Source of the DNA: an uncultured Bacteroidales bacterium
GTDB taxonomy: Bacteria > Bacteroidota > Bacteroidia > Bacteroidales > F082
Direction: 5' to 3'
Assembly (NCBI GenBank): GCA_947303055.1
Contig: CAMYXV010000012.1
Location: 1-33,785 of the forward strand
DNA length: 33,785 nt
Made by a program: the position numbers and the translations under genes
The notes under the pieces: model-generated
Seen by the model: the letters and a program-made list of their open reading frames with translations, nothing else
What the model was told of the DNA's origin: nothing
The model's database searches: none
Shown here: piece after piece, positions 1 to 29,776 of the stretch
Layout of the letters: every line of letters begins with the position of its first letter
How positions within the stretch are numbered: the first letter of the stretch is position 1

Positions 1-140
1 TCCAAAACGCCCACGACCGCTTCCTCTGCATCGACGACACGGTGTATCATATCGGTGCCTCGCTGAAGGACTTGGGGAAGAAATGGTTTGCTTTTAGCAG
101 GATGGAGATTGGGGCTGAGGCGCTGCGGGGGAAAATGTGA
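1..140 (+). CDS. 3' end of a protein, possibly ORF6N-type (partial)
   Basis: An open frame enters from the left edge (codons in phase from base 3) and stops with TGA at 138-140, giving about 45 residues. The tail contains HDRFLCIDD followed by YHIGASLKDLGKK. I associate this pattern with the C-terminal PLD-like tail of Bacteroidota ORF6N-domain (phage KilA-N/ORF6N family) proteins, where H-x-R/K-x4-D is a degenerate HKD-type motif. The family name rests on memory of that pattern and on a short fragment, so it is tentative. The gene is richer in GC than the methyltransferase that follows and lies just outside the restriction-modification operon. Confidence 0.5.
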   Translation, partial: QNAHDRFLCIDDTVYHIGASLKDLGKKWFAFSRMEIGAEALRGKM

Positions 141-191
141 TGGGATTGCGTTTTTTATCGGAATCATTGGAAAGGTTTCGGGGAAAATGTT

Positions 192-199
192 TATTTTTG
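192..199 (+). promoter_or_regulatory. -7 promoter element for the R-M operon
   Basis: TATTTTTG matches the Bacteroidota -7 consensus TAnnTTTG. A partial -33-like ATTGG lies at 166-170. The element ends 6 nt before the ATG at 206, so the transcript would be nearly leaderless. This supports 206 rather than 137 as the start of the first methyltransferase. Confidence 0.55.
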
Positions 200-205
200 C
201 AGATT

Positions 206-1642
206 ATGCCAAAGAATTTATACAAAATAGCGTCATTTTTCTCCGGTTGCGGAGGTCTTGACCTTGGTTTTGAGCAGGCAGGATTCCAAGTGATTTGGGC
301 GAATGAGTTTGAGACTCATTGTCGTGCTACCTATACCCGAAACCTTCCTAATACAGAGTTTGTGTTAGGTGATTTATGCACGATCGATCCTGATACGATT
401 CCTGTATGTGATGGTTTTATCGGTGGCCCTCCTTGTCAGTCGTGGAGTATAGGTGGCAAGCAAAATGGACTTGAGGACCAACGTGGACAATTGTTTTTGA
501 AATACATTGAACTTATTAATGACAAGAAACCCAAGTTTTTTGTAATAGAGAACGTGAAGGGTATTCTTGACGACAAATTCAAGAAAGTATTCGATGATTT
601 CCTTGATAGACTTGACAAAGCAGGATATGATGTGCAATGGGCTTTGCTCGACGCTGTTAATTTCCGCATTCCTCAGAACCGAGAGAGGGTTTTTTTAGTT
701 GGTTTCAGAAAGGAACTAAATGCGTCATTCACTTTTCCGGCTCCAACAAACACCAAGCCAATAACACTAGAACAGGCTATTGGCGACATCATCGAAGAAC
801 CATTCCATTTTTCAAATGGGGAAATAAATAAAACCGAAGAAGATACAGAAAAGAACAATCGGTATCCTAATCATGATGTATATACATCTAGGTATGGTTC
901 ATTTTATTACAGAGGCAATAGACGAAGAGGGTGGCAGCAACCATCATTCACCATAAATGCTACTGCCGACTTTGTTCCATTACATCCGTCATCACCAAAG
1001 ATGATGTTTTATGGCCATGAAAAATGGGATTTCCAAAAGAACAGGTTGGATGAATACAGAAGATTAAGTGTGCGTGAATGTGCCCGAATACAAACATTCC
1101 CTGACGACTTTATCTTCGAGTATGATAACATAAAAGATGCTTATAAGATGATTGGCAACGCCGTTCCTCCTCATTTAGGTAAATTGATAGCCAAATCCAT
1201 TATGGCTGCTTTAAATTGCATGGATGTTGCTGCAAATATTCCGAAAAATGGCGAAGAGTCCATATCGGCACCTGTACTTGTTGGCTATTACAAAGGAGAT
1301 TTTCATAAGCAATTAATACTTAACAACAAGCTCTATTATGTTCGTTCTGATGGGCGAAAAGGATCAATGTTTAAAGAGGATTGTTCCATTGTACCAAAAT
1401 ATTTGTCACTTCACAACAAAAACCAAACTGAAATGTATGAATTAGAAGAAGAAGAACCTATACTCACAGATGCTTCCTTCTTGAAAACCTTAGGTTTTAA
1501 AACATCTGGTGAGACATACCTCTGTTTCCGATTAAAAAGTGCAAAACCTTTTAGTATAATCAATTCAGAAAGCATGAACAATCGTTTGAATTATGAGCAG
1601 GAAAAAACTTATCCATATTTTACGACAATTGACAAATTATAG
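206..1642 (+). CDS. DNA cytosine-C5 methyltransferase (first of two)
   Basis: Transfers a methyl group from S-adenosylmethionine to carbon 5 of cytosine, protecting the site cut by the linked nucleases. From the ATG at 206 the protein has 478 residues. Visible motifs are I (FSGCGGLDLGF, about 12-22), IV with the catalytic Cys in GGPPCQSW (Cys77), VI (IENV, about 114-117), VIII (PQNRERVFLVGF, about 156-167) and X (GNAVPPHLG). About 120 residues follow motif X and are not explained by the methylase fold. The start at 137 is rejected because it adds 23 residues overlapping the preceding gene and lies upstream of the -7 element. The next gene begins 4 nt after the stop, so this heads an operon. 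The AT-rich coding differs from the flanks, which fits lateral transfer. Confidence 0.95.
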   Translation: MPKNLYKIASFFSGCGGLDLGFEQAGFQVIWANEFETHCRATYTRNLPNTEFVLGDLCTIDPDTIPVCDGFIGGPPCQSWSIGGKQNGLEDQRGQLFLKYIELINDKKPKFFVIENVKGILDDKFKKVFDDFLDRLDKAGYDVQWALLDAVNFRIPQNRERVFLVGFRKELNASFTFPAPTNTKPITLEQAIGDIIEEPFHFSNGEINKTEEDTEKNNRYPNHDVYTSRYGSFYYRGNRRRGWQQPSFTINATADFVPLHPSSPKMMFYGHEKWDFQKNRLDEYRRLSVRECARIQTFPDDFIFEYDNIKDAYKMIGNAVPPHLGKLIAKSIMAALNCMDVAANIPKNGEESISAPVLVGYYKGDFHKQLILNNKLYYVRSDGRKGSMFKEDCSIVPKYLSLHNKNQTEMYELEEEEPILTDASFLKTLGFKTSGETYLCFRLKSAKPFSIINSESMNNRLNYEQEKTYPYFTTIDKL

Positions 1643-1646
1643 ATAT

Positions 1647-2891
1647 ATGAATGTTGATAGCGAACAAATAACCCTTGATAAGAGTCTTGTTGTTGCTCAG
1701 GATCAACCTTTGTCAGAAAGGGAGCTTCAAGAATGCCTTATCAATGTGCTAGGCAAAAAAAATTGTAGAATACTTACTGTTCCATCTCGTAAGTGGGTGC
1801 TTGAATTCATAGATGGTGGTAAAGTGCATCATCTTCTTGTAAGAACATGTACTTATTTAGGGAATCCCCATCCTATTTACAAGAAAAGAGTTCAATTGCC
1901 TCTTTGGTTTAACAATTATACTAATGCCATCAATAAGGAAAATCCTAATATAGATGTCCGATATATTGGCGTATATCATTATGGTGATGAGCATCATGGA
2001 GATAATATTATTTTTATTGACTTCAAAAAAGATACATATCTCACAAAAAAAGGGCATAATTCATCTGCACATGTCTATACAAATGATTTGTTTCAAGCGA
2101 TGATTTATGGCGTTTTCACTAAAGAAGATTACTTTGGTAATATTGTTTCTGCAATACGTAGAGACAAGTTCCGTGATTACATCATAGGTAACGCGTCTGA
2201 AACAACCACCCTTTTCGATTTATTCCGAAAATTCAATTGCGGTTTTACATTTGGTCAATGGCTTAAGGCTTTAGATGCAATTAAAGAGATGTACGAGAAC
2301 GAATGGAATCAATGGAAACAGCCAGAGTGGGCAGGTTTTTTCTTGGAGTACAAGTTCAACAAATTTACAATTGAAAACAATGTCACCAATCAGATGCGTT
2401 ATGTTGGTAGTTCTCTGAAACGTGAAAGAGACTTGGACTTTGATATTCGTTTTGATGAAGAAGATTTCTATGGCGACTTGAAAGCTAGTGACATATCTAA
2501 AAGAGAAACCCCAGGTAATGATCAAGAGAATCTCATTGAGTGTATTTATCAATTCGATAAGTTCTGGTATGTAATCTATGAACACGAAACACAAAAAGAC
2601 AGTGTCGCTACAGGGTATGAGGCCACAAAGGCTAGGAACCGCTACATCAAGAGTATTGACCCATCTTATGACAAAGACGAAATGTCATACCACGAACGAA
2701 TGAAGAATTCGGTTAAATTTGTAAAGATGTCTATTATTGAACTCAATCGAGTTAATTTCCGGGAGGCATTAACAGATTTCAATCAAGGTCATCAACCAGA
2801 TGGTAGCGCCAGGAAGCCAAAGTTTAACATTAACAAGAAAGTGTTGGAGAATGACAATTTTGTTGTTTTCCGTTATTTATACGATAAATAA
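1647..2891 (+). CDS. putative PD-(D/E)XK restriction endonuclease between two methylases
   Basis: A 414-residue protein of a family I do not recognise. Its position between two C5 methyltransferases suggests a restriction enzyme. The sequence offers a plausible PD-(D/E)XK centre: Glu234 in LEYKF, acidic residues around 264-266 (DLDFD), then Asp277-x-Lys279 in YGDLKAS, followed by conserved-looking WYVIYEHET. The N-terminal 180 residues contain no motif I can name and could carry target recognition. The ATG at 1647 is preferred because it starts 4 nt after the upstream stop; an earlier start at 1593 would overlap that gene by 50 nt. The stop overlaps the next start by one base (TAATG), indicating translational coupling. 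It could instead be an accessory or specificity subunit of the McrBC-like nuclease. Confidence 0.7.
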   Translation: MNVDSEQITLDKSLVVAQDQPLSERELQECLINVLGKKNCRILTVPSRKWVLEFIDGGKVHHLLVRTCTYLGNPHPIYKKRVQLPLWFNNYTNAINKENPNIDVRYIGVYHYGDEHHGDNIIFIDFKKDTYLTKKGHNSSAHVYTNDLFQAMIYGVFTKEDYFGNIVSAIRRDKFRDYIIGNASETTTLFDLFRKFNCGFTFGQWLKALDAIKEMYENEWNQWKQPEWAGFFLEYKFNKFTIENNVTNQMRYVGSSLKRERDLDFDIRFDEEDFYGDLKASDISKRETPGNDQENLIECIYQFDKFWYVIYEHETQKDSVATGYEATKARNRYIKSIDPSYDKDEMSYHERMKNSVKFVKMSIIELNRVNFREALTDFNQGHQPDGSARKPKFNINKKVLENDNFVVFRYLYDK

Positions 2892-4066
2892 TGCAAAATT
2901 TTAAATTTATAGATTTATTCTGCGGAATTGGAGGCTTTCATCAAGCAATGGAATCACTTGGAGGAGAGTGTGTCTTTGCTAGTGATATAGATGAAGATTG
3001 CCGCAAAACTTATAAAGCAAATTATGGAATAGAACCAGCAGGTGATATTACAAAAATCGAGGCTAAAGATATTCCTGAACATGATGTGTTATGTGCAGGA
3101 TTTCCTTGTCAGGCATTCTCAAAAGCTGGAAAAAGATTAGGGTTTGAAGATGAGACTAAGGGAACGTTATTCTTTGATATCTGTCGAATAATGGAATTCC
3201 ATAAACCAAAATATGCCTTGCTGGAGAATGTAAGAAATCTTGCTAGTCATGACCACGGTAATACATGGAAAGTAATCCACGACAGGCTTAAAAAACTCGG
3301 ATATAATCTTCTTTCGGAACCAGTTATATTCAGTCCGCATTATATAGGAATACCTCAGCACAGGGAACGTGTCTTTATTATGTGTATTAGAAATGACATC
3401 GGAAATATAAAGCCCTTTTCTTTTGACACTAAAAAAATACCCTCTAGCTCCATTGAGACAATTCTTCAAAACGAAGACGAAATCCCCAACGTGCAGGAAT
3501 ACCATATCTCTAAAGACATGGTGAACCTTATTGACTTGTGGAACAAATTTATACAGTCAATTAAGGTTGATAAATTGCCAGGTTTCCCCATTTGGACAGA
3601 CAGGTTATGCGAATTAGATCCAAACGAGGATTTGTCGCAATATCCAGACTGGAAACAGAACTTTATTCGTAAAAATAACGAACTGTATCTTAACAACAAG
3701 AGGTTCATTAACAGTTGGCTAAAACAAGCCCAAAAGAATCCTCTTTTCTTTGGTGCTAAAGCCAAACTGGAATGGCAAGCGGGAAACAATGGAACTCCAG
3801 ACATTTGGAACCAGATTTTTCAATTACGTCCGTCTGGAATCAGGGTCAAGGTGAATTCCTATTTCCCTGCCCTTGTTGCTATTGTTCAAACTTCGATTAT
3901 CGGCTCACGGCGCAGATTCCTCACGCCCAGAGAATGTGCGCGTTTGCAAAGTTTTCCAGATACATTCCAATACGATGTAAAACCAGCACAGGCCTATAAA
4001 CAGTTTGGTAATGCTGTAAATGTAGATTGCGCGAAACTATTTGCTAATCATATGTTTAACAAGTAA
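2891..4066 (+). CDS. DNA cytosine-C5 methyltransferase (second of two)
   Basis: A complete 391-residue m5C methyltransferase, distinct in sequence from the first one in this operon. Motif I is FIDLFCGIGGF (6-16), the catalytic Cys73 sits in AGFPCQAFSKAG, ENV is at 112-114, motif VIII is PQHRERVF, RECARLQSFP follows the variable target-recognition region, and motif X is QFGNAVNVDCAK near the C-terminus. Two C5 methylases in one operon usually mean that each modifies one strand of an asymmetric site, or that they have overlapping specificities. The start shares its first base with the preceding stop codon. Base composition is AT-rich like the two upstream genes. Confidence 0.96.
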   Translation: MQNFKFIDLFCGIGGFHQAMESLGGECVFASDIDEDCRKTYKANYGIEPAGDITKIEAKDIPEHDVLCAGFPCQAFSKAGKRLGFEDETKGTLFFDICRIMEFHKPKYALLENVRNLASHDHGNTWKVIHDRLKKLGYNLLSEPVIFSPHYIGIPQHRERVFIMCIRNDIGNIKPFSFDTKKIPSSSIETILQNEDEIPNVQEYHISKDMVNLIDLWNKFIQSIKVDKLPGFPIWTDRLCELDPNEDLSQYPDWKQNFIRKNNELYLNNKRFINSWLKQAQKNPLFFGAKAKLEWQAGNNGTPDIWNQIFQLRPSGIRVKVNSYFPALVAIVQTSIIGSRRRFLTPRECARLQSFPDTFQYDVKPAQAYKQFGNAVNVDCAKLFANHMFNK

Positions 4067-4077
4067 ATTATTTCAAA

Positions 4078-5457
4078 ATGGTTCCATTCGAAGAAACTAT
4101 TCATACAAAACAAGAACTAATAGAAGCATGCAAACGAGGTTTCGAAGATTATTCTAAAAAAAGAATATCAAAAAACGATTTTTGCATGTATTTCGGTTTC
4201 ACACACGGAAAAGCGATAACAACATTTTACGAGGGAGATTACGAACAACTCTTAATTGATGGCGGTTTTAATTCTGGAAGCAGTGCTTATTTTTCTGGAG
4301 GAATTAACGCTTGGAAGAATCTTCGAGATGGAAAATATGTTTTTCCTCCGTTCATTCAAAATAATGTAACACCCAGTGTGGCAAACAATAAGCCCCTCCA
4401 GCAAATCTTCTATGGTGCCCCAGGCACTGGCAAATCCCACAGAATCAAGGAAATCATCAAAGAACACGGCATTGATGAGAAAGAGCAGGTCATCCGCACG
4501 ACCTTCCATCCCGATAGCGATTACTCCACTTTTGTGGGTTGCTACAAACCCATTATGAAGTCCGTGCCGCAAACCTACGTGGTGGAAGGCAACGAGAAAC
4601 CCGTGATGGCCGACAAAGATAACCAAGCCACCAAAGAGGAAATCGTTTACGACTACACGCCACAAGCCTTTGTGCAAGCCTACACCAAGGCATGGACTAC
4701 GGACAAGCCCGTCATTCTTGTGATTGAGGAAATCAACCGTGGCAACTGCGCACAAATCTTCGGCGACATCTTCCAACTTTTAGACAGAGGCGACGACGGC
4801 GTTTCAGAGTATGAGATCAAGCCCGACAAGGCCTTGGAAAACTATCTGAGGGACTATTTCGCTGGCAAAGATGATGTCCCCGAAGATATTCGCAATGGCA
4901 AAATCATGAAGTTGCCCGGCAACCTCTACATCTGGGCCACCATGAACACCAGCGACCAAAGCCTATTCCCCATCGATTCGGCTTTCAAGCGCAGATGGGA
5001 GTGGAAGTATATGCCCATCAACAATCATGAGGATAAAGGCTACCAAATTGAAATCGGTGATGCAAAGTATGATTGGTGGGGCTTCTTGGTACGCATCAAC
5101 CATGTGATTAACGACACCACCAATTCGGAAGACAAAAAGTTGGGCTATTTCTTTGCCAAAGCTAAAGGCAAAACCATTGATGCCGAACAGTTTGTGGGCA
5201 AGGTGCTGTTCTACCTCTGGAACGACGTTTTCAAGAGCTATGGCTTCGACGATCCTATTTTCAGCAAAGGCGACAACAAGAAGTTTGAGTTTTCCGATTT
5301 CTTCATGAACGACGGCAATCCAAATACCGATACCGTGAATCTATTCCTTAGAAAGTTGGAAGAGACCATCAAGATGGAAGGATTACCGCTTGAAATCATC
5401 AAAGACAAACAAAACGAAGCTCAACCTGACAGCGAACCTCAAGAAGCCGAGGCATGA
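4078..5457 (+). CDS. McrB-like AAA+ NTPase subunit of a LlaJI-type restriction complex
   Basis: Motor subunit expected to bind DNA and drive NTP-dependent translocation with the nuclease encoded next. It has 459 residues. Residues 1-100 form an N-terminal domain of unknown fold, probably DNA-recognising by analogy with McrB and LlaJI R1. The AAA+ domain starts near 106 with Walker A GAPGTGKS (113-120), Walker B VILVIEE (212-218), the McrB signature MNTSDQS (289-295) and an arginine-finger region KRRW (304-307). Its last 4 bases overlap the next start (ATGA), typical of mcrB-mcrC pairs. Base composition changes sharply at about base 4376, just before the AAA+ domain: roughly 35% GC before and 50% after by hand count, suggesting a mosaic gene. 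Confidence 0.92.
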   Translation: MVPFEETIHTKQELIEACKRGFEDYSKKRISKNDFCMYFGFTHGKAITTFYEGDYEQLLIDGGFNSGSSAYFSGGINAWKNLRDGKYVFPPFIQNNVTPSVANNKPLQQIFYGAPGTGKSHRIKEIIKEHGIDEKEQVIRTTFHPDSDYSTFVGCYKPIMKSVPQTYVVEGNEKPVMADKDNQATKEEIVYDYTPQAFVQAYTKAWTTDKPVILVIEEINRGNCAQIFGDIFQLLDRGDDGVSEYEIKPDKALENYLRDYFAGKDDVPEDIRNGKIMKLPGNLYIWATMNTSDQSLFPIDSAFKRRWEWKYMPINNHEDKGYQIEIGDAKYDWWGFLVRINHVINDTTNSEDKKLGYFFAKAKGKTIDAEQFVGKVLFYLWNDVFKSYGFDDPIFSKGDNKKFEFSDFFMNDGNPNTDTVNLFLRKLEETIKMEGLPLEIIKDKQNEAQPDSEPQEAEA

Positions 5458-7709
5458 GAATCCTGATAGAAGAACACCCCTACGAAGCCACCGACGAGAT
5501 TTTGAAGGTGGTGAGCGAACTTGGCCCCACCATCAGCGTTGGGGGCAAAGTGAGCGTTGGGTATGTTGGCTATTACTACAACACGGCCATCAAGGATTGT
5601 GTGTTCATTCTACCCAAGGTCTTGCTTGACGAAGATGGGAAAGCTTTCGGAAAACACGATCCAGAAACAATCGTCCACCTTGAGAGCAAAGAGAATCCTT
5701 TGGACGAAGATGAGAGAAGATTCATTTACGAATTATCGGTATGGATTTATCGCGCCATCAGCGTCTTCAAGGAGCGCAACAAGGAAAGCAAAATCGTGTT
5801 GCATGAACGAATTGCGGAAATTGGTCACGGTCAACGACGATTGAGTAACACTTTCCTGGACATTCTGCTTTCGCTGGAACAGTTTTACAAGGATAACCAA
5901 GACTTCTTCTTCTTTGTCATCAAAAACCAACATAGCGGTCACAACAAAATCAATTGGACAAAGACCATCACGCATTCACAAGCTTTTTTGCAGAATGGAG
6001 CGCCCATCTATCTGAATCCTGTGAACAAGTGCCGTCAAGTGAATTTCGATGAGGAATTGATGGTCATCTATTTCTCCATCTTGAACTACCTGCACAACGA
6101 ATACGGGTTCCCATTCGATGCAGATTGCCATTATGAACTAATCAGTGGGCATCAGTTCAAGAGCTTTCTAAAGATGGGTAAAACTCGTCTGCAGGAAATC
6201 AAGTACAAGTACTTTTCCGACAAGGCATTGGAATTATGGGAATTGTGTCACGCTTTTTTTGACGAGGCACGACAAATCCTCATCAACACAAGGCAAAAAG
6301 AATATCTGCTCGTAAAGAGTTTCGAGATTGTCTTCGAAGACATCATTGATGATTTGCTTGGAGGTAGAAACGACGAACTCCCCAAAGAGTTACAAGAACA
6401 ACCCGATGGCAAACAAGTGGACCATCTGTTCCGTTACAAGTCGCTTACCGAGACCGACAACGAAAAAATCTATTACATCGGCGACTCAAAATACTACAAA
6501 CGCAACACGCCTATTGGCAAAGAGGCCTTGTACAAACAATTCACCTACGCAAGGAACGTCATCCAATGGAACCTTGACCTTTTCCTTGATGAGAGCAAAA
6601 CCAAAGAGCAAAGCGAGGAACGGGCAAAAGGAACCAACATTTTACGTGACGATGTGACGGAAGGCTATAATATCATCCCCAATTTCTTTATCTCGGCCAA
6701 GCAACAAGACCTAAAGATGCACAGCGACATCGAATGGATTGACAAGGACAACAAGGATTTCGCCTCACGGCAGTTTGAAAACCGTTTGTTTGACAGAGAT
6801 ACCTTGTTGGTGTGCCATTACGATGTCAATTTTCTATATGTTGTAGCCCTCTACGGCCGCAAGAATGAAGGGATAAAGGCCACATGGCGGGAAAAAGTGA
6901 AAGCGCAGTTCCGTAGGGAAATCCAAACCATGCTGCAAGACAAATACACCTTCTACGCCATGACACCACGCGAAGGGATAAACTCCGAAGATTTCCTGAA
7001 AACGAACTTCCAGCAACTGTTGGGAAAGGTGTTTACTCCGTATCACATTGAAAGTCCACAGCCGTATTATTCATTGGCGTTGGACAATGACCCAAAGTAT
7101 AATGACGAGAACGACTTGGTGCTGACATTGTTGGAACCAGGGTTCCATTACGAAAAATGTGCGTTGGGACAGGATCCAAGAGAAGTCTTGCCTTCGGTTG
7201 TGCAACCGACCATCATTGTCACGCCCCCTTCATTGCTTACAATGCATCATATCCAACGCTATCCCAACCAGTACTTCCTCATTGGTTGTTATCATTCGGA
7301 TGAACAGTTGGATTGGATCATGGGCAAGAACGACAAAAAAACGAACCTTTACAATGTCCGCTTGAAACGTCGTGGGGACACGGCCAGTGATGGGGCATTG
7401 CAGCCTAAACATCTTAAAGGGAAAGATGTGGTGTTTGTGGTTTTGTATAAGTTTGGCGAGGAAGACAAGAACGAATATCGCCTTTTCCATGTCCACCATA
7501 ATGCCACGATGAATGAAGAACGTATGCGCAAGTCGCTCTATCCCAACCCTCAAGGCAATTATTTCTGCTTCGTTTTCGATGAAGAAGTACAGCTCTCACA
7601 GCATATCGACATATCCACAATCATCACCGATGCTATTAAAAATGATGACATCGTGCCAGGCACACCTATCTTTAAGACAGGTATAGAATTGCAAGATTAT
7701 CTGAGATAG
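5454..7709 (+). CDS. LlaJI/McrC-like restriction endonuclease subunit
   Basis: Nuclease partner of the McrB-like protein, 751 residues. The catalytic region is recognisable: EIVFEDIIDDLLGG (about 290-303), then VDH with Asp323, then IYYIGDSKYYK with Asp344-x-Lys346. This is the PD-(D/E)XK arrangement of the LlaJI restriction endonuclease family, whose known member works with an McrB-like partner and two C5 methylases. The C-terminal half (about 400-751) has no motif I can name. It starts inside the mcrB-like gene by a 4-nt overlap, so the two are translationally coupled. No gene continues in the same operon: the next -7 element appears 40 nt after the stop. Confidence 0.88.
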   Translation: MRILIEEHPYEATDEILKVVSELGPTISVGGKVSVGYVGYYYNTAIKDCVFILPKVLLDEDGKAFGKHDPETIVHLESKENPLDEDERRFIYELSVWIYRAISVFKERNKESKIVLHERIAEIGHGQRRLSNTFLDILLSLEQFYKDNQDFFFFVIKNQHSGHNKINWTKTITHSQAFLQNGAPIYLNPVNKCRQVNFDEELMVIYFSILNYLHNEYGFPFDADCHYELISGHQFKSFLKMGKTRLQEIKYKYFSDKALELWELCHAFFDEARQILINTRQKEYLLVKSFEIVFEDIIDDLLGGRNDELPKELQEQPDGKQVDHLFRYKSLTETDNEKIYYIGDSKYYKRNTPIGKEALYKQFTYARNVIQWNLDLFLDESKTKEQSEERAKGTNILRDDVTEGYNIIPNFFISAKQQDLKMHSDIEWIDKDNKDFASRQFENRLFDRDTLLVCHYDVNFLYVVALYGRKNEGIKATWREKVKAQFRREIQTMLQDKYTFYAMTPREGINSEDFLKTNFQQLLGKVFTPYHIESPQPYYSLALDNDPKYNDENDLVLTLLEPGFHYEKCALGQDPREVLPSVVQPTIIVTPPSLLTMHHIQRYPNQYFLIGCYHSDEQLDWIMGKNDKKTNLYNVRLKRRGDTASDGALQPKHLKGKDVVFVVLYKFGEEDKNEYRLFHVHHNATMNEERMRKSLYPNPQGNYFCFVFDEEVQLSQHIDISTIITDAIKNDDIVPGTPIFKTGIELQDYLR

Positions 7710-24853: not shown

Positions 24854-25846
24854 TTATTGTTTCGGTAGCGTTTTGATGTTGTCCAAAAAGTCTTTCTCCA
24901 CTTGGCTTAAAGTGCGTTGCTGGTATTTCTTGTATTCGGTAGTCGCGTGTTCGATGGCTTGTTGGTGCGACACTTTCCCTGCTCCCTGAAGTAACTTTTC
25001 ACCGCTCATAGTCAAAATGTTGTCCAAATGTGCCGCCCAGTCTTTCATAGTCATCACCTGTTGGCGTTCCGCTTGTCGTTCAGCAAAGTCCAAGTATCCT
25101 GAGACAATCTGTCCCATAGCCCGCAACTCCTTCTCGTCCAGATAGTTCTTTGCGATGACGGCATCTTTCAAATGCGGTCTGTCACCCTCAAATGTCGTCA
25201 ATCCCATGAATTCCTTTTCGGCATCGGCGCGACTGACAATGACTTCGGCAGCCGTTTGGCCATGCACGGCATAATGAATCTTGTTCTGCACCCGCTTGAA
25301 AAACTCAATGGAAATGTCGGCCTTGGGATTGTAGTCGATGCTTGTGGCGTAAATATCAAGCACTTGCCTGTAAAACACCTTCTCCGAAGAACGGATGTCG
25401 CGAATGCGTTCGAGAAGTTCCTTCCAATAGCCGCCACCACCAAGGTTTTTCAGGCGGTTGTCGTCGAGGGCAAAGCCTTTTCTGATGTACTCTTTGAGTA
25501 CGCCAGTGGCCCAAATACGGAATTTGGTAGCTTTGGTTGAATTAACGCGGTAACCTACTGAAATGATGGCATCGAGATTATAGAAATTGGCATCATTAGT
25601 TTGTGTCAGACCTTCAATAGCACCATGTTGAGTGGTTATTTCCATTTTGGAAACAACCACTTTTTCGTCCAATTCCCCTTCCTGAAAAATGTTTTTCAGA
25701 TGCTTGCTAATTGCAGGAACACCTACATCAAAAAGCTGAGCCATTGCCTTCTGAGTGGCCCATAAGGATTCATCCTTAATAATCACTTGTATGACACCTT
25801 CTTCGTCAGGTAGGTGGTATAGTATGAATTGGGTTTCGTTGGTCAT
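24854..25846 (-). CDS. RhuM-family protein
   Basis: A 330-residue protein of the RhuM (virulence protein) family. Its N-terminus carries the typical ESLWATQKAMAQLFDVGVPAISKHLKNIFQEGEL, an HTH-like segment, followed by the TQTNDANFYNLDAIISVGYRVNSTKATKFRIWATGVLKEYIRKGFALDDNRLKN signature. The C-terminal helical part has YLDFAERQAERQQVMTMKDW. RhuM proteins are often found in restriction or defence loci and next to toxin-antitoxin genes, and their biochemical role is not settled. It is the last gene of the seven-gene minus-strand operon, 3 nt after the NA37 gene. Confidence 0.9.
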   Translation of the reverse strand: MTNETQFILYHLPDEEGVIQVIIKDESLWATQKAMAQLFDVGVPAISKHLKNIFQEGELDEKVVVSKMEITTQHGAIEGLTQTNDANFYNLDAIISVGYRVNSTKATKFRIWATGVLKEYIRKGFALDDNRLKNLGGGGYWKELLERIRDIRSSEKVFYRQVLDIYATSIDYNPKADISIEFFKRVQNKIHYAVHGQTAAEVIVSRADAEKEFMGLTTFEGDRPHLKDAVIAKNYLDEKELRAMGQIVSGYLDFAERQAERQQVMTMKDWAAHLDNILTMSGEKLLQGAGKVSHQQAIEHATTEYKKYQQRTLSQVEKDFLDNIKTLPKQ

Positions 25847-25849
25847 AGT

Positions 25850-26878
25850 CTATTCTTCCTCACTATAATACACCTTATAATATTTGCCTCTTTCGTCTTC
25901 GCCTTGCTCCACATTGTGACGATTGCCATTGATGATAATTTGGATTTTCTTGTCAAGATTGATAATGCGTTTGTAACTCCGCTGTTGCTTTTTAAAAGCA
26001 TGATTGGAGATAGCAAATGTATCGTCAATGGTAATGTCATTTTCCGACTCGTAATTACGCTTGAAGTTATGGAAACTTTCTATTACTTCAGGCTGCTCAA
26101 TGACTTCATGAGCGAAATCTTCAATATCAAATGTGTCTTTCTCTTTAAAAAATTTCAGCGACTTATTCAACAAATCGATTTGGTCTGCTTTTGATACTTC
26201 AAACTCTTTAGGCAATTCCTTGGTAACGAAATTCTTGGCCATCGCCATTACATTTTGAGTATTTGCATACTCATCTTTGCGTTGGCGGATATGCAAAAAG
26301 TCATCAATCCAGTATTGGGCTTCAATGCCTTTATTCGTGTTATCCACTACTGCAACGATATAGCCATTTTCGCGTTCTTTGTTGAAGATGAGGCAACCTT
26401 TGTCTAATTTCTTGATGTTGATACCCTGTTCGCTTTCAAGATTGAAATTCCCATCTTCTCGCAACACTTTCAAAAAAGTGTCTTTGTTCTCTGACTTGAA
26501 CAATCCAACAGCATCCACTGTATCGCCATCCACGATACAATCTTTGAAATAGACCGTGTAAAACTCGCCGCCCTTGATTTTCGGGTGGGTACTTTGGTCG
26601 TATAGATGCTTGGCGAGATTGACAGATTGGTCATATAGCGTTTCTGGGTCGTCAAAAATTTGTGAGACTGCTCCAAATACAACATTGTACTCAATGCCGC
26701 TATCGTGGTATAGTTCAAAGTATTCTTCGGATGTGAATGGAGCAAGAAAAAAGTTTACCAACAGGTTTCTGATCTCATCTTTAACGACAAGATTAGATTT
26801 TGACAAGATAATACCATTATCGATGGATTTATTGCCAACGAAATGGAGTGATATATGATCAATTCTTGACATTTCCAT
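25850..26878 (-). CDS. nucleoid-associated protein, NA37/NdpA family
   Basis: A 342-residue protein resembling the 37-kDa nucleoid-associated protein family (PF04245; YejK/NdpA in E. coli). Supporting features are the N-terminal IDHISLHFVGNKSIDNGIILSKS, the helical AKHLYDQSTHPKIKGGEFYTVYF, GCLIFNKERENGYIVAVVDN and the C-terminal KKIQIIINGNRHNVEQG strand pair. Relatives bind the nucleoid, and some phage inhibitors target YejK. A second ATG at 26872 gives the same protein without two residues. The start overlaps the membrane-protein gene by 20 nt. In this operon it may bring the other components to DNA, which is inference. Confidence 0.8.
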   Translation of the reverse strand: MEMSRIDHISLHFVGNKSIDNGIILSKSNLVVKDEIRNLLVNFFLAPFTSEEYFELYHDSGIEYNVVFGAVSQIFDDPETLYDQSVNLAKHLYDQSTHPKIKGGEFYTVYFKDCIVDGDTVDAVGLFKSENKDTFLKVLREDGNFNLESEQGINIKKLDKGCLIFNKERENGYIVAVVDNTNKGIEAQYWIDDFLHIRQRKDEYANTQNVMAMAKNFVTKELPKEFEVSKADQIDLLNKSLKFFKEKDTFDIEDFAHEVIEQPEVIESFHNFKRNYESENDITIDDTFAISNHAFKKQQRSYKRIINLDKKIQIIINGNRHNVEQGEDERGKYYKVYYSEEE

Positions 26879-27383
26879 TCTTTTCCTTTTTTGTTAATAT
26901 GAAATAAAAATTCAGCACGTTTCTAAGTAGCAATAAAATGCTATAAGTAGTGAGTGAAATGCTAATTGAGAAAAATACCTTACCTGTTTTTGTTGCAACA
27001 TCAACAAAAAGCGGATATACGAAATTCGAAATCAATAAGAAACCTTGGATAATAATAATATAAGCCAATTCTACTAAAAGTGTTTCATACAAATAAACAG
27101 GTCGAGAGTAAATAATAATTTCAGTCTCTTTTTTCTTTGCTTCACGAATACTACCATTCTCTACTGATAATAAAATGGCAAAAACAGAAATTGTAAAACC
27201 AATTAAAATGCCCAACACTGTTGTGATATTATTTTGATACCCCACCGCATGTCGATAATAAAAACAGTCATTCGACAAATAATACACGCACAATCCCAAT
27301 ACTATTGATAGACAAACGGCCTTTAGTATTTTCCATCGTTTTATAAGATGGAATTCAGCAATAAGCAGCAAATATTCCATCAT
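26859..27383 (-). CDS. uncharacterised four-helix membrane protein
   Basis: A 174-residue integral membrane protein with four predicted helices: about 20-36, 52-72 (GILIGFTISVFAILLSV), 102-125 (ELAYIIIIQGFLLISNFVYPLF) and 137-160. A basic loop (KKKETEIIIYSRP) lies between helices 2 and 3 and the C-terminus is basic (TKKEKNGNVKN). I recognise no family. The ATG at 27383 shares a base with the preceding stop (TGATG), so translation is coupled to the 304-aa gene. A small membrane subunit inside a nuclease operon resembles the effector or sensor layout of several defence systems, but no homology is claimed. Confidence 0.8.
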   Translation of the reverse strand: MMEYLLLIAEFHLIKRWKILKAVCLSIVLGLCVYYLSNDCFYYRHAVGYQNNITTVLGILIGFTISVFAILLSVENGSIREAKKKETEIIIYSRPVYLYETLLVELAYIIIIQGFLLISNFVYPLFVDVATKTGKVFFSISISLTTYSILLLLRNVLNFYFILTKKEKNGNVKN

Positions 27384-28297
27384 CAAAAATCTTTGGCCAT
27401 CTTTTGCAGTCTTGATAAAAGTTGAGTAGAGTTGACTTCTCCTGTTTCTGAATCCAAATCAACAGAAACAAACTCTTGTTTACAAAGCAAGGATGTATCC
27501 AGTAATATGGAATTGTTGTTTTCGTCTACCCCTTTAACCCTCACTCTTGAAATAAGAGAATCTTTATGTTGCATTTTATTCCAAAAATCTATTCCAACTT
27601 CAGTAATGCTTTCTTTGGGTGACGCTTTGGCTGTCAGCATAATGTCTCTTTTTAACGAAACGGTACGATTTGAGAAATTCAAAGCATCACTCCCTAATAA
27701 TTGCTTATCAAAATATACTTCTGCCAATGTTGTTCGAGTCAATCTTTCTACTTCAGTAAGAAAATTATTCATCATTATATCTGTCTTAAGAATATGAAAA
27801 TTTCTCCTTTGGTCAATACTATTCAAATATGCACCGGTGAATTGCGTAATATAATTCACAAAAACGGTTGAAGAAATCCCCATGAAATTTTTCTCTAAAA
27901 ACAGGTACACTTCGTTATTTATTTTCGAGATTTTAACAAGAAAGTGCGTTTTCTCTATATCGCCTTCGCTCCTTTCTTTTGGATTTGTTCTCTCGTTACC
28001 TGTTCTTTTATTTATCAGATTGGGCCTAAAATCACTTCTTGCACTTTTAAAAACGCCAACATAAGCAACATCAACATCGTTTAATTCTGTTTTATTCACG
28101 AAATCAATAAAGCAAAACTTATTGTCCCGCAAATCATAGAATTTCTTTTTCTTATCTTTTTCTTTGAAACTGCCAATGTATTCTAATACATCACCTATAA
28201 GATAAAAGGGAAATTCTTTTTCTTCATCCTCTTGTTTTTGCTTCCACATGTGTTGAATTAAGGTGTGGAAAGAAATTTTTACATCTTTTGTTGCCAT
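27383..28297 (-). CDS. uncharacterised 304-aa protein of the accessory operon
   Basis: A soluble, Lys-rich 304-residue protein that I cannot assign to a family. It begins MATKDVKISFHTLIQHMWKQ and contains FYDLRDNKFCFIDFVNKTELNDVDVAYVGVFKSARSDFRPNL and the late segment SLLCKQEFVSVDLDSETGEVNSTQLLSRLQKMAKDF. No nuclease, NTPase or HTH motif stands out. The stop codon overlaps the start of the four-helix membrane protein, and its own start lies 7 nt after the zinc-ribbon gene, so it is firmly in the operon. Such coupling suggests a complex or pathway with the membrane protein. Confidence 0.8.
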   Translation of the reverse strand: MATKDVKISFHTLIQHMWKQKQEDEEKEFPFYLIGDVLEYIGSFKEKDKKKKFYDLRDNKFCFIDFVNKTELNDVDVAYVGVFKSARSDFRPNLINKRTGNERTNPKERSEGDIEKTHFLVKISKINNEVYLFLEKNFMGISSTVFVNYITQFTGAYLNSIDQRRNFHILKTDIMMNNFLTEVERLTRTTLAEVYFDKQLLGSDALNFSNRTVSLKRDIMLTAKASPKESITEVGIDFWNKMQHKDSLISRVRVKGVDENNNSILLDTSLLCKQEFVSVDLDSETGEVNSTQLLSRLQKMAKDF

Positions 28298-28304
28298 ATT
28301 TCTT

Positions 28305-28541
28305 CTATTTTACATTTTTGTCTCGTATAATATTATGACTAAAAAGGAATCTTTCTATATCTTTCAAGTAACGTTTCTCGTTATCTAACACCCACGCAAC
28401 CTTATCACATTTTTCACACAAATACTGAAGAAAGAACATATCACCTTCTTCATCTGTTGAAAAAAACTTCATTTCATTGCCACAATTGTTACAGACAACT
28501 GTAACTTGCTCAAAATCATTTTCCCTTATACGTTTTTCCAT
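28305..28541 (-). CDS. small zinc-ribbon protein
   Basis: A 78-residue protein with two CxxC knuckles, Cys17-NN-Cys20 and Cys42-EK-Cys45, that should bind one zinc ion. The rest is helical and charged (YLKDIERFLFSHNIIRDKNVK). It starts 26 nt inside the 3' end of the PLD nuclease gene. Small zinc ribbons of this type often bind nucleic acid or act as adaptors; which applies here cannot be told. The length and the clean knuckle spacing make it a believable gene despite its size. Confidence 0.75.
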   Translation of the reverse strand: MEKRIRENDFEQVTVVCNNCGNEMKFFSTDEEGDMFFLQYLCEKCDKVAWVLDNEKRYLKDIERFLFSHNIIRDKNVK

Positions 28542-29433
28542 TGTCCGTTAGTTTAAAGAGTCCTGAATATTTTTCTTTGCTTTCAAAAAGTTCTTTATTG
28601 TATTTACCACCATAACCAACTAAATCAAAGTAAATACACTTTCGTAAAATCTGTCTAAAATTAGTCATAGAATAGTGCAGGTTTTGTTCTTCTATTCTTT
28701 TTAAAACAAAATCACCAATATCCTTTAAATGAACGTATTCCGTTGTGTCATTTGATAAAGTCTTTATTGCTTCAATTATCATTTGCTTCATCGTAGGAAC
28801 CGCACCAGGGAGTAATTCCTCAATTCTCTTTATTTCGGTTATCTCTTTTTTTACTTTTTCGTCTTTTAGGGCTTTTAGCCCGTTTTTTCTAAACGTACTA
28901 TAAATTGCCGAATAACGCAACAGATAATCTTCATCTGGAGTAAAAATTGTGTCAGTATATTTAACCGAATTGTAAATTGCTTCTAATTGGGAATAGTACT
29001 GAGGCTTCTCTTCTTTTATTATCGTATTTACCTCAAAATTGGTAGTTAGTCCACCACCTGTTAAATTGGCACTTCCAACGATAGAGGTTTTTTCTTTATT
29101 ATTAGAAAAAAGATATATTTTAGGGTGAAATACAATGCTCGTTGTATTATCCAATTTGTCTGCGTAACAATAGAATTCTAGATTTGGGCAATCTTTTTTC
29201 AAATTCAAAATGTATTGAATCGACTGTGGGTCTGTCGTCTTAAAATCTAGTCCAGTAATAATCTCTATTTTACCTTCCTTTTGAAGGCATTGTTTCATGG
29301 AATCTTCTATAACTTTAATCCCCGTTGCCTTCATAAAAGCGACCGCAATACGTGCTTCTTTCGCCTGTTGAAGTTCAAAATTGATAAGATTACCAATTGG
29401 ATAATTAATATTTGACAAAACCTGGAGTTTCAT
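28516..29433 (-). CDS. PLD-family nuclease with a single HKD motif (NgoFVII/BfiI-like)
   Basis: A 305-residue protein. The N-terminal 140 residues form a PLD catalytic domain with one motif, H103-P-K105 in VFHPKIYLFS, followed by SIVGSANLTGGGL (Ser121 and Asn123) and Glu134. A single motif suggests that it works as a dimer, as BfiI and NgoFVII-type restriction enzymes do. About 190-305 look like winged-helix DNA-binding sequence (KDIGDFVLKRIEEQNLHYSMTNFRQILRKCIYFDLVGYGG). It begins 14 nt after the methyltransferase fragment. The combination suggests a DNase acting on foreign DNA; RNA or lipid substrates are less likely but not excluded. Confidence 0.88.
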   Translation of the reverse strand: MKLQVLSNINYPIGNLINFELQQAKEARIAVAFMKATGIKVIEDSMKQCLQKEGKIEIITGLDFKTTDPQSIQYILNLKKDCPNLEFYCYADKLDNTTSIVFHPKIYLFSNNKEKTSIVGSANLTGGGLTTNFEVNTIIKEEKPQYYSQLEAIYNSVKYTDTIFTPDEDYLLRYSAIYSTFRKNGLKALKDEKVKKEITEIKRIEELLPGAVPTMKQMIIEAIKTLSNDTTEYVHLKDIGDFVLKRIEEQNLHYSMTNFRQILRKCIYFDLVGYGGKYNKELFESKEKYSGLFKLTDNGKTYKGK

Positions 29434-29447
29434 GTATTACGCGACAA

Positions 29448-29738
29448 TTAGAGACTAAACACACTAAATACATCATCAATGTCACCTACTTTTAGCTCTT
29501 TACATAATTTAGCAAAACGAGGCTGATCGTTTAATTCGATGTAAGTTTTAGAAATAGCATAGGAAAATTCCAAGTTATCATTTGAGATAACCGTATAACC
29601 CATTTTCTTGAAATGCCTGCCTACAGAACTCGTTCCTGAAAACAAATCCACAAAATTGGATGTTCCATTGATGCCCGTGCTTTTGACAACATTTTCAATA
29701 AAAGGCAACAACTTGGTTTTATTTCCGTAGTATCTCAT
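29448..29738 (-). pseudogene. N-terminal fragment of an adenine-N6 DNA methyltransferase (D12/MboI class)
   Basis: A 96-residue ORF that begins like the N-terminus of D12-class adenine methylases: MRYYGNKTKLLPFIENVV, then motif I FVDLFSGTSSVGRHFKK and the acidic NDNLEFSYAISKTYIELN. It stops at 29448. The catalytic D/N-PP-Y motif and about two thirds of the usual length are missing, and the next gene starts 14 nt later, so the rest is deleted rather than frameshifted. The ATG at 29738 is preferred since the -7 element lies at 29769-29776. It probably cannot methylate. A role as an S-adenosylmethionine-binding or regulatory fragment is possible but unsupported. Confidence 0.8.
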
Positions 29739-29768
29739 TAATTGATTTATTTGTCTATCATTTCGCTG

Positions 29769-29776
29769 CAAAATTA
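29769..29776 (-). promoter_or_regulatory. -7 promoter element for the seven-gene operon
   Basis: Plus-strand CAAAATTA reads TAATTTTG on the minus strand, 30 nt upstream of the ATG at 29738. No other consensus element was seen between the seven genes, whose spacing is 14 nt or less. Confidence 0.5.

Follow-up and report, generated by a model that had tools for sequence, protein, structure and literature searches.

We analysed a stretch of 33,785 nucleotides (nt), hereafter the window, which lies on contig 12 (CAMYXV010000012.1) of a 58% complete genome from an uncultured Bacteroidales bacterium of the F082 lineage. Our subject is a stack of seven minus-strand open reading frames (ORFs) that runs from 29738 to 24854 with successive spacings of 14, -26, 7, -4, -20 and 3 nt. 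In order, the genes encode the start of a D12 adenine methylase, a PLD-family nuclease-like protein, a small zinc-ribbon-like protein, a soluble protein (A), a membrane protein (B), an NA37/YejK-family protein and a RhuM-family protein (Table 1). An initial annotation, made from the sequence alone, had described these genes as a tightly coupled operon behind a single -7 element and as a candidate undescribed defence system. The spacings bear out the coupling, Pfam confirms the methylase start, PLD, NA37 (121.1 bits; cut-off 24.6) and RhuM (357.2 bits; cut-off 33.7), and B has the four hydrophobic segments described; the zinc ribbon has sub-threshold matches only.

The proposed -7 element, TAATTTTG at 29776-29769, fits the pattern TAnnTTTG, which we take to be the Bacteroidetes-type -7 consensus. 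The identical TAATTTTG precedes the methylase stub in locus L061 of genome G892, and the only other minus-strand TAnnTTTG between 24800 and 30000, at 26021, sits inside the NA37 gene; from these matches we consider the element the probable promoter of the stack. The GC content of the seven genes is, in order, 0.340, 0.320, 0.308, 0.326, 0.303, 0.378 and 0.456, compared with a window mean of 0.457 and 0.552 for the whole pheS gene. The initial annotation had counted 33 GC in 120 nt at 28561-28680, correctly, and had taken this as a sign of recent acquisition. Since AT-richness is confined to the five leading genes (GC 0.30-0.34), with NA37 and RhuM at the last two values above, base composition is no proof that the whole stack was acquired and we dropped that argument. 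An Rfam scan of the window at gathering scores gave no match, and the repeats around the stack are just short or imperfect ones; we claim no attachment sites.

Table 1. Positions of the stack features in the window and of related gene pairs elsewhere, with the basis of each assignment
Feature	Position	Strand	Basis
-7 element TAATTTTG (TAnnTTTG), probable promoter	29769..29776	-	pattern match; same element 5' of the stub in L061
D12 adenine-methylase N-terminal stub, 96 aa	29448..29738	-	PF02086 profile positions 1-73 of 253
PLD-family nuclease-like protein, 305 aa	28516..29433	-	PF13091 1.2e-11; NgoFVII PF09565 1.8e-7
Small zinc-ribbon-like protein, 78 aa	28305..28541	-	sub-threshold Pfam matches
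A, soluble protein, 304 aa, X component	27383..28297	-	phrog_4672 4.4e-10
B, membrane protein, 175 aa, four hydrophobic segments, Y component	26859..27386	-	phrog_4613 2.2e-7; hydropathy
NA37/YejK-family protein, 342 aa, third component	25850..26878	-	PF04245 8.3e-35
RhuM-family protein, 330 aa	24854..25846	-	PF13310 5.5e-107; PADLOC PDC-S05
Stretch without L061 match (X-Y block and about the first 50 NA37 codons)	26731..28320	-	blastn breakpoints
NA37-paralogue and RelA/SpoT pairs	L243:3998-6182 (Streptomyces); L244:3510-5590 (Klebsiella); L247:1916-3999 (Ochrobactrum)		

We find that the pairing of A with B is conserved. Relatives of A occur in genomes G424 (L001 and L017, one locus with the same genes), G417 (L018), G105 (L005/L020), G059 (L006/L021) and G562 (L027), on a Monoglobus plasmid (L004) and in Anaerostipes phages (L003, L028), where three phage records and L028 represent one locus; a further relative, in MT838221, is cut near the record end and was excluded. 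In all eight testable A loci, the soluble gene comes first and a membrane protein of 167-187 amino acids (aa) is encoded directly downstream on the same strand. Hydropathy gives four hydrophobic segments for each of the seven B-position proteins computed, and L027 was judged by eye. In four of the six Bacteroidia A loci (the window, G424, G417 and G105) NA37 is the third gene. It does not adjoin the pair in G059, is missing from the 484 nt of available sequence past the G562 pair, and is not in the stretches shown beside the pairs of the Monoglobus plasmid and the Anaerostipes phage.

A is rare, and both proteins are poorly covered by reference families. A was found in 3 of 393 order genomes by protein search and in 4 of 395 class genomes by profile search, each time including its own genome. 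The phage families matched by A and B (phrog_4672 and phrog_4613) are of unknown function, Pfam has no family above cut-off for either protein and no match to B up to E 0.1, and a search of solved structures with an A profile gave nothing up to E 1. The PADLOC matches in the stack are to RhuM, PLD and the methylase start; A, B, NA37 and the ribbon lack any match up to E 0.1. In viral contigs, a scan with the phage A recovered one relative, whereas those with L004 A, L005 A and the A and B of the window recovered none; tblastn searches of plasmids with L006 A and with the first gene of another cassette (L019 X) gave no match.

To our knowledge, NA37/YejK proteins are poorly understood; a search of solved structures with the window protein returned just three matches, at E 0.75-0.78. 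We used the name X-Y-NA37 cassette for a first gene (X) and a second gene (Y) followed by NA37, as in A-B-NA37. In our family sample, NA37 is present in 25 of 149 genomes (27 genes), 21 of which were testable (G855 was left out, as were G406, G912 and G917, where contigs end), and 7 of the 21 carry a cassette: G000, G424, G417, G884 (L074), G892 (L061), G904 (L056) and G915 (L067). In the order sample, NA37 is present in 148 of 384 genomes. From 114 of these 148 we took 120 neighbourhoods, hand-picked among the matches listed, which gave 116 NA37 ORFs (L117, L123, L129 and L226 gave none); 19 of the ORFs have at least two close upstream genes and four of these were judged cassettes by reading. 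With G411 (L019) and G105 (L020), which came from other searches, the total is 13. A cassette is the exception among NA37 genes. We also considered whether solitary and cassette NA37 genes exclude each other, and dropped the idea because the numbers are too small. Relatives of the window NA37 also appear in 4 plasmid and 23 phage records; one of each was examined and both are without a cassette. The phage is Tenacibaculum phage Gundel_1 (L246:2483-3511), where NA37 adjoins a zinc-finger gene near a C5 methylase.

That 112 of the 116 order-sample ORFs lie outside cassettes, by reading, and that the methylase is a stub could indicate a chance stack of accessory genes with no joint function. For A-B-NA37 this is contradicted by a gene order kept in four loci as A identity falls to about 37% (L005), and we give a chance stack hardly any credence.

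The X and Y slots of the 13 cassettes hold different proteins. Twelve have a membrane protein as Y, and in one Y has a RelA/SpoT domain. Four cassettes are of the A-B type (the window, L017, L018 and L020) and three of a second type, X'-Y' (L019, L074 and L133). In hhalign comparisons, the B and Y' profiles match at 57% over 98 columns (reversed controls 1-2%). A relation between A and X' is suggestive only (7.4%, E 0.005, 177 columns, reversed control 0.14%, with three members), and we keep X' as a separate type because the match falls to 0.2% with two members. In four further cassettes (L056, L061, L067 and L167), X is an NA37 paralogue and Y a larger membrane protein with two or three hydrophobic segments. 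PF04245 is found in X of L056 (6.4e-55) and L061 (9.5e-19); X of L067 is NA37-like by BLAST (9.6e-7) and hhalign (93%), yet has no PF04245 match in Pfam, and X of L167, which is cut by the contig end, was called NA37-like by eye. L141 combines an NA37-paralogue X (5.8e-20) with the RelA/SpoT Y (1.8e-18). Finally, L152 has an unclassified X and a Y of 150 aa with three segments, to which B aligns at 60% over 49 columns in a comparison made without reversed control. The idea that A itself is a diverged NA37 is not supported (profile probability 0.30%, compared with 0.13% for the reversed control).

NA37-paralogue/RelA-SpoT pairs also occur on plasmids from Klebsiella (4-nt overlap), Streptomyces (34-nt gap) and Ochrobactrum (4-nt overlap). 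These three pairs are Pfam-confirmed and have no further NA37 in the stretch shown. We examined two of the four plasmid records matching L141 X and four regions of the 29 records matching L141 Y, one of the four having an NA37 neighbour; RelA/SpoT motifs were named by eye. L141 shares a RelA/SpoT synthetase domain with RelA/SpoT toxin modules such as toxSAS/CapRel; in L141, however, the domain protein is paired with an NA37 paralogue, and in the window Y is a membrane protein. Window B has no RelA_SpoT domain (Pfam up to E 0.1), a domain present in L141 and the three plasmid pairs. In the Klebsiella plasmid region, a DUF4231 gene precedes the pair.

Comparison with L061 defines the boundaries of the parts. 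By blastn, the window is homologous to L061 over 29828-28320 (94%) and 26731-24856 (87%), with nothing between. The two loci thus have the same left and right parts, the promoter, stub, PLD and ribbon before the gap and RhuM with most of NA37 after it, but carry different X-Y pairs in the middle. DNA homology of the window with L019 starts at window position 26761, with L056 at 26857 and only at 26323 with L074, whose NA37 protein is 29-33% identical to the window NA37 up to residue 180 and 96-97% identical beyond. Among six other same-genus cassettes (L067 left out), residues 1-60 are 29-72% identical to the window; for residues 241-342 the values are 91-96% (L019, L056, L061 and L074), 80% (L017) and 75% (L018). 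Four cassette-free NA37 proteins (L060, L063, L065 and L023) likewise have N-termini (44-54%) less similar to the window than their C-termini (76-81%), so part of the gradient along NA37 is ordinary divergence. The sharp DNA steps, most clearly in L061 and L074, speak for recombination within the NA37 gene, and are no proof that the NA37 N-terminus contacts X-Y. PLD, NA37 and RhuM are under purifying selection, with ratios of nonsynonymous to synonymous substitution (dN/dS) of 0.039, 0.071 and 0.044 relative to L061.

RhuM follows NA37 in 6 of the 13 cassettes (the window, L019, L056, L061, L074 and L152). When compared in bins of 75 nt, the cassette RhuM genes have a variable N-terminal stretch between better-kept flanks, clear in L019, L056 and L074 and weaker in L061, that is perhaps a swapped recognition region. 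A study on HEPN places RhuM in restriction-modification (R-M)/PrrC loci as a proposed toxin (PMC3710099); RhuM stands with R-M genes there, and follows NA37 cassettes here.

Based on these boundaries, the stack is best read as a layered mosaic of (1) stub, PLD and ribbon, (2) A, B and NA37, and (3) RhuM. The tight coupling and one promoter would suit the initial annotation's view of all seven genes as one functional system, but L061 shares the flanks and carries a different X-Y pair, a close PLD relative is present in just one other genome of the 149 in the family, and RhuM follows 6 of the 13 cassettes. Because the blocks exchange separately, we reject a single seven-gene system as very improbable. 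What survives of that claim is a candidate undescribed defence module, and the co-occurrence that the initial annotation proposed to look for exists at the level of modules: all 8 testable loci keep A-B, four loci from Bacteroidia keep A-B-NA37, and RhuM is found behind 6 of 13 cassettes. The complete stub-PLD-ribbon block was seen in one other genome only.

Several cassettes have R-M or other defence-type genes as neighbours. HsdM/HsdS genes, named by eye, lie beside the L001/L017 and L074 cassettes, and family searches place a type IIG enzyme and PDC-M04A/B beside L018. A C5 methylase and a type II methylase, each on the opposite strand, lie beside L019 and L056, respectively. L067 is next to an ATPase matching PDC-M62A, L141 to an N6 methylase/specificity gene and L152 to GmrSD. 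Presumed mobilisation genes, again named by eye, are near L005.

The conserved pair, the variety of Y and the R-M setting lead us to favour, on balance and with considerable doubt, an abortive-infection-type immune module in which exchangeable X-Y pairs operate on a shared NA37. We propose that A would pair with B and restrain or trigger it as a sensor or regulator, and that B may be the effector, a small four-helix membrane protein perturbing the inner membrane; we call Y the effector mainly because a RelA/SpoT domain occurs in the Y slot. NA37 would be the shared third subunit and may report the state of the DNA; nucleoid or DNA binding is suggested by its family name. X-Y pairs may be swapped as blocks by recombination into a conserved NA37-RhuM end, beside R-M genes. 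In the DefensePredictor report, the YejK nucleoid-associated domain is among the newly validated E. coli defence domains (PMC13092281). That YejK-domain system protected E. coli in experiments; it has the NA37/YejK domain in common with the window and is not known to be linked to the A-B pair. In the open-access literature we found no paper on NA37 with conflict systems or on PDC-M53, a PADLOC candidate whose component A is matched by L005 A (PDLC04695, 1.4e-5, residues 91-164), unlike window A, which has no match up to E 10; nor did we find anything there on ABC-3C or toxSAS together with nucleoid-associated proteins, and for DUF4868 there was one paper, about treponeme genomes.

The main rival is a Kiwa-like mode of action, which we regard as rather unlikely. 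Here B would be a membrane sensor at the site of phage injection and A, with NA37, would bind incoming DNA and block its replication and transcription with no cell killing, following the mechanism given for Kiwa in a review (PMC12904381). A small multi-transmembrane protein with a soluble protein of about 300 aa does recall KwaA-KwaB, and the NA37 and KwaB profiles align at 22% (23% in another run; E 9e-4, 145 columns, reversed control 0.4%). By sequence, on the other hand, the pair does not fall within Kiwa. A as KwaB has no PF16162 match up to E 0.1, no PADLOC match up to E 10 and an hhalign value of 0.11%, equal to its reversed control; B as KwaA has 0.22% (reversed control 0.06%) and no PADLOC match; and the NA37-paralogue X reaches about 0.3% or less against KwaB. 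The gene order is also reversed: KwaA precedes KwaB in both Bacteroidales Kiwa loci over the KwaB cut-off (L079 and L080), whereas the soluble gene comes first in 8 of 8 A loci, and the window cassette has NA37 as a third gene. Furthermore, RelA/SpoT in the Y slot suits an effector better than a membrane sensor. As to setting, the Kiwa pair of L079 (L079:1645-7719; KwaB by Pfam model) lies directly behind genes that by eye resemble type I R-M genes, a position like that of A-B-NA37 in L001, which would fit a Kiwa-like mode; by eye, L080 is without R-M-like genes.

We consider it quite improbable that the pair is a toxin-antitoxin or addiction module, with B the toxin and A the antitoxin, that stabilises mobile DNA and carries NA37 and RhuM as passengers. 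Such a module would account for a unit of two genes that occurs in phages, on a plasmid and near the presumed mobilisation genes of L005, and for RelA/SpoT alternatives that resemble toxSAS. It fits less well with NA37 as the third gene of 13 cassettes with differing X-Y pairs, several of which adjoin R-M genes. Toxin-antitoxin modules often act as defence systems, and this explanation therefore overlaps with the immune module we favour.

Several observations weigh against an immune X-Y-NA37 module. No phage phenotype is known for any cassette member, and neither PADLOC nor NCBIfam matches A, nor does Pfam above its cut-off. The A-B pair is without adjacent NA37 in 4 of 8 loci, and by reading only four cassettes (L133, L141, L152 and L167) lie among the 116 order-sample NA37 ORFs. 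The B-Y' match needs three Y' members (1.6% with two). The A profile reaches 0.30% against NA37 (reversed control 0.13%) and 0.11% against KwaB (reversed control 0.11%), so that nothing ties A to the NA37-paralogue X. A RelA/SpoT Y was seen in one three-gene cassette only, L141, where it also has one hydrophobic segment, and an annotated NA37 neighbour is absent in three of four RelA/SpoT plasmid regions (Bacteroides, Limnohabitans and Cetobacterium).

A broader and more tentative idea, which we think rather doubtful, makes NA37 the fixed centre of combinatorial immunity, serving many interchangeable X-Y sensor-effector pairs, its N-terminal part changing with the pair through recombination inside NA37 and its C-terminal part and RhuM staying constant. 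The pairs might then, as speculatively, include four-helix proteins, larger proteins whose membrane segments are C-terminal, and RelA/SpoT synthetases. We temper this idea because in the cassette-free NA37 proteins, too, the N-terminus is the most divergent part. Should NA37 prove to be a subunit of immune cassettes with exchangeable effectors, part of a family as widespread as the order sample indicates (148 of 384 genomes) would gain a testable function. A nucleoid protein would be linked to membrane and alarmone-type effectors, and there would be a route for reshuffling defence genes between chromosomal sites.

The block at the head of the stack is read as an R-M-like unit with a decayed methylase. 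For the methylase stub, the ATG at 29738 is the most likely start, as for its 97-aa counterpart in L061, and the stub is probably a remnant; its dN/dS relative to L061 is 0.50 (18 changes). The PLD endonuclease domain PF09565 exceeds its cut-off (31.1 bits; cut-off 23.8), as expected for a type II R-M system with an NgoFVII-like PLD endonuclease, but the operon has no intact cognate methylase, the stub spanning 73 of 253 profile positions. By eye, the PLD protein has HPK and GSANLT and lacks the Asp of the classical HKD motif. Its matches are confined to 3 of 149 family genomes (its own, G892 at 98% and a weak one in G820) and to 4 of 247 order-sample genomes (its own and three weaker). The ribbon is 92% identical across 74 residues to its L061 counterpart (dN/dS 0.23). 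Stub, PLD and ribbon occur together in one other genome only, at L061, there followed by the different X-Y pair. The match to the DISARM DrmC equivalog NF038319 stays below its cut-off (22.9 bits; cut-off 133).

Other NA37 neighbourhoods differ from the cassettes. For instance, in L153 (L153:740-5326) NA37 is the last gene after those for a Cap4-nuclease protein (its match to CTD7 of ABC-3C falls below cut-off), an ATPase-like DUF3732 protein and a protein of 145 aa, a likeness to ABC-3C; the window cassette, in contrast, has no ATPase. In L140 (L140:1497-5224) NA37 directly follows the gene for an 896-aa protein, and in L171 (L171:2063-5171) it follows genes for a 311-aa and 374-aa pair that by eye resemble the two halves of that protein; neither the 896-aa nor the 311-aa protein has a Pfam match at 0.01. 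In a same-genus genome (L022:10538-14820), a putative CRISPR array and cas1-like gene, both recognised by eye, lie about 2.6 kb away from an NA37 ORF; the array was called because ORFs on both strands repeat one peptide. The window itself has a second defence-type locus at 137-7709, with two C5 methylases, MTaX1 between them, an AAA_5 protein and a 751-aa protein without Pfam match at 1e-5.

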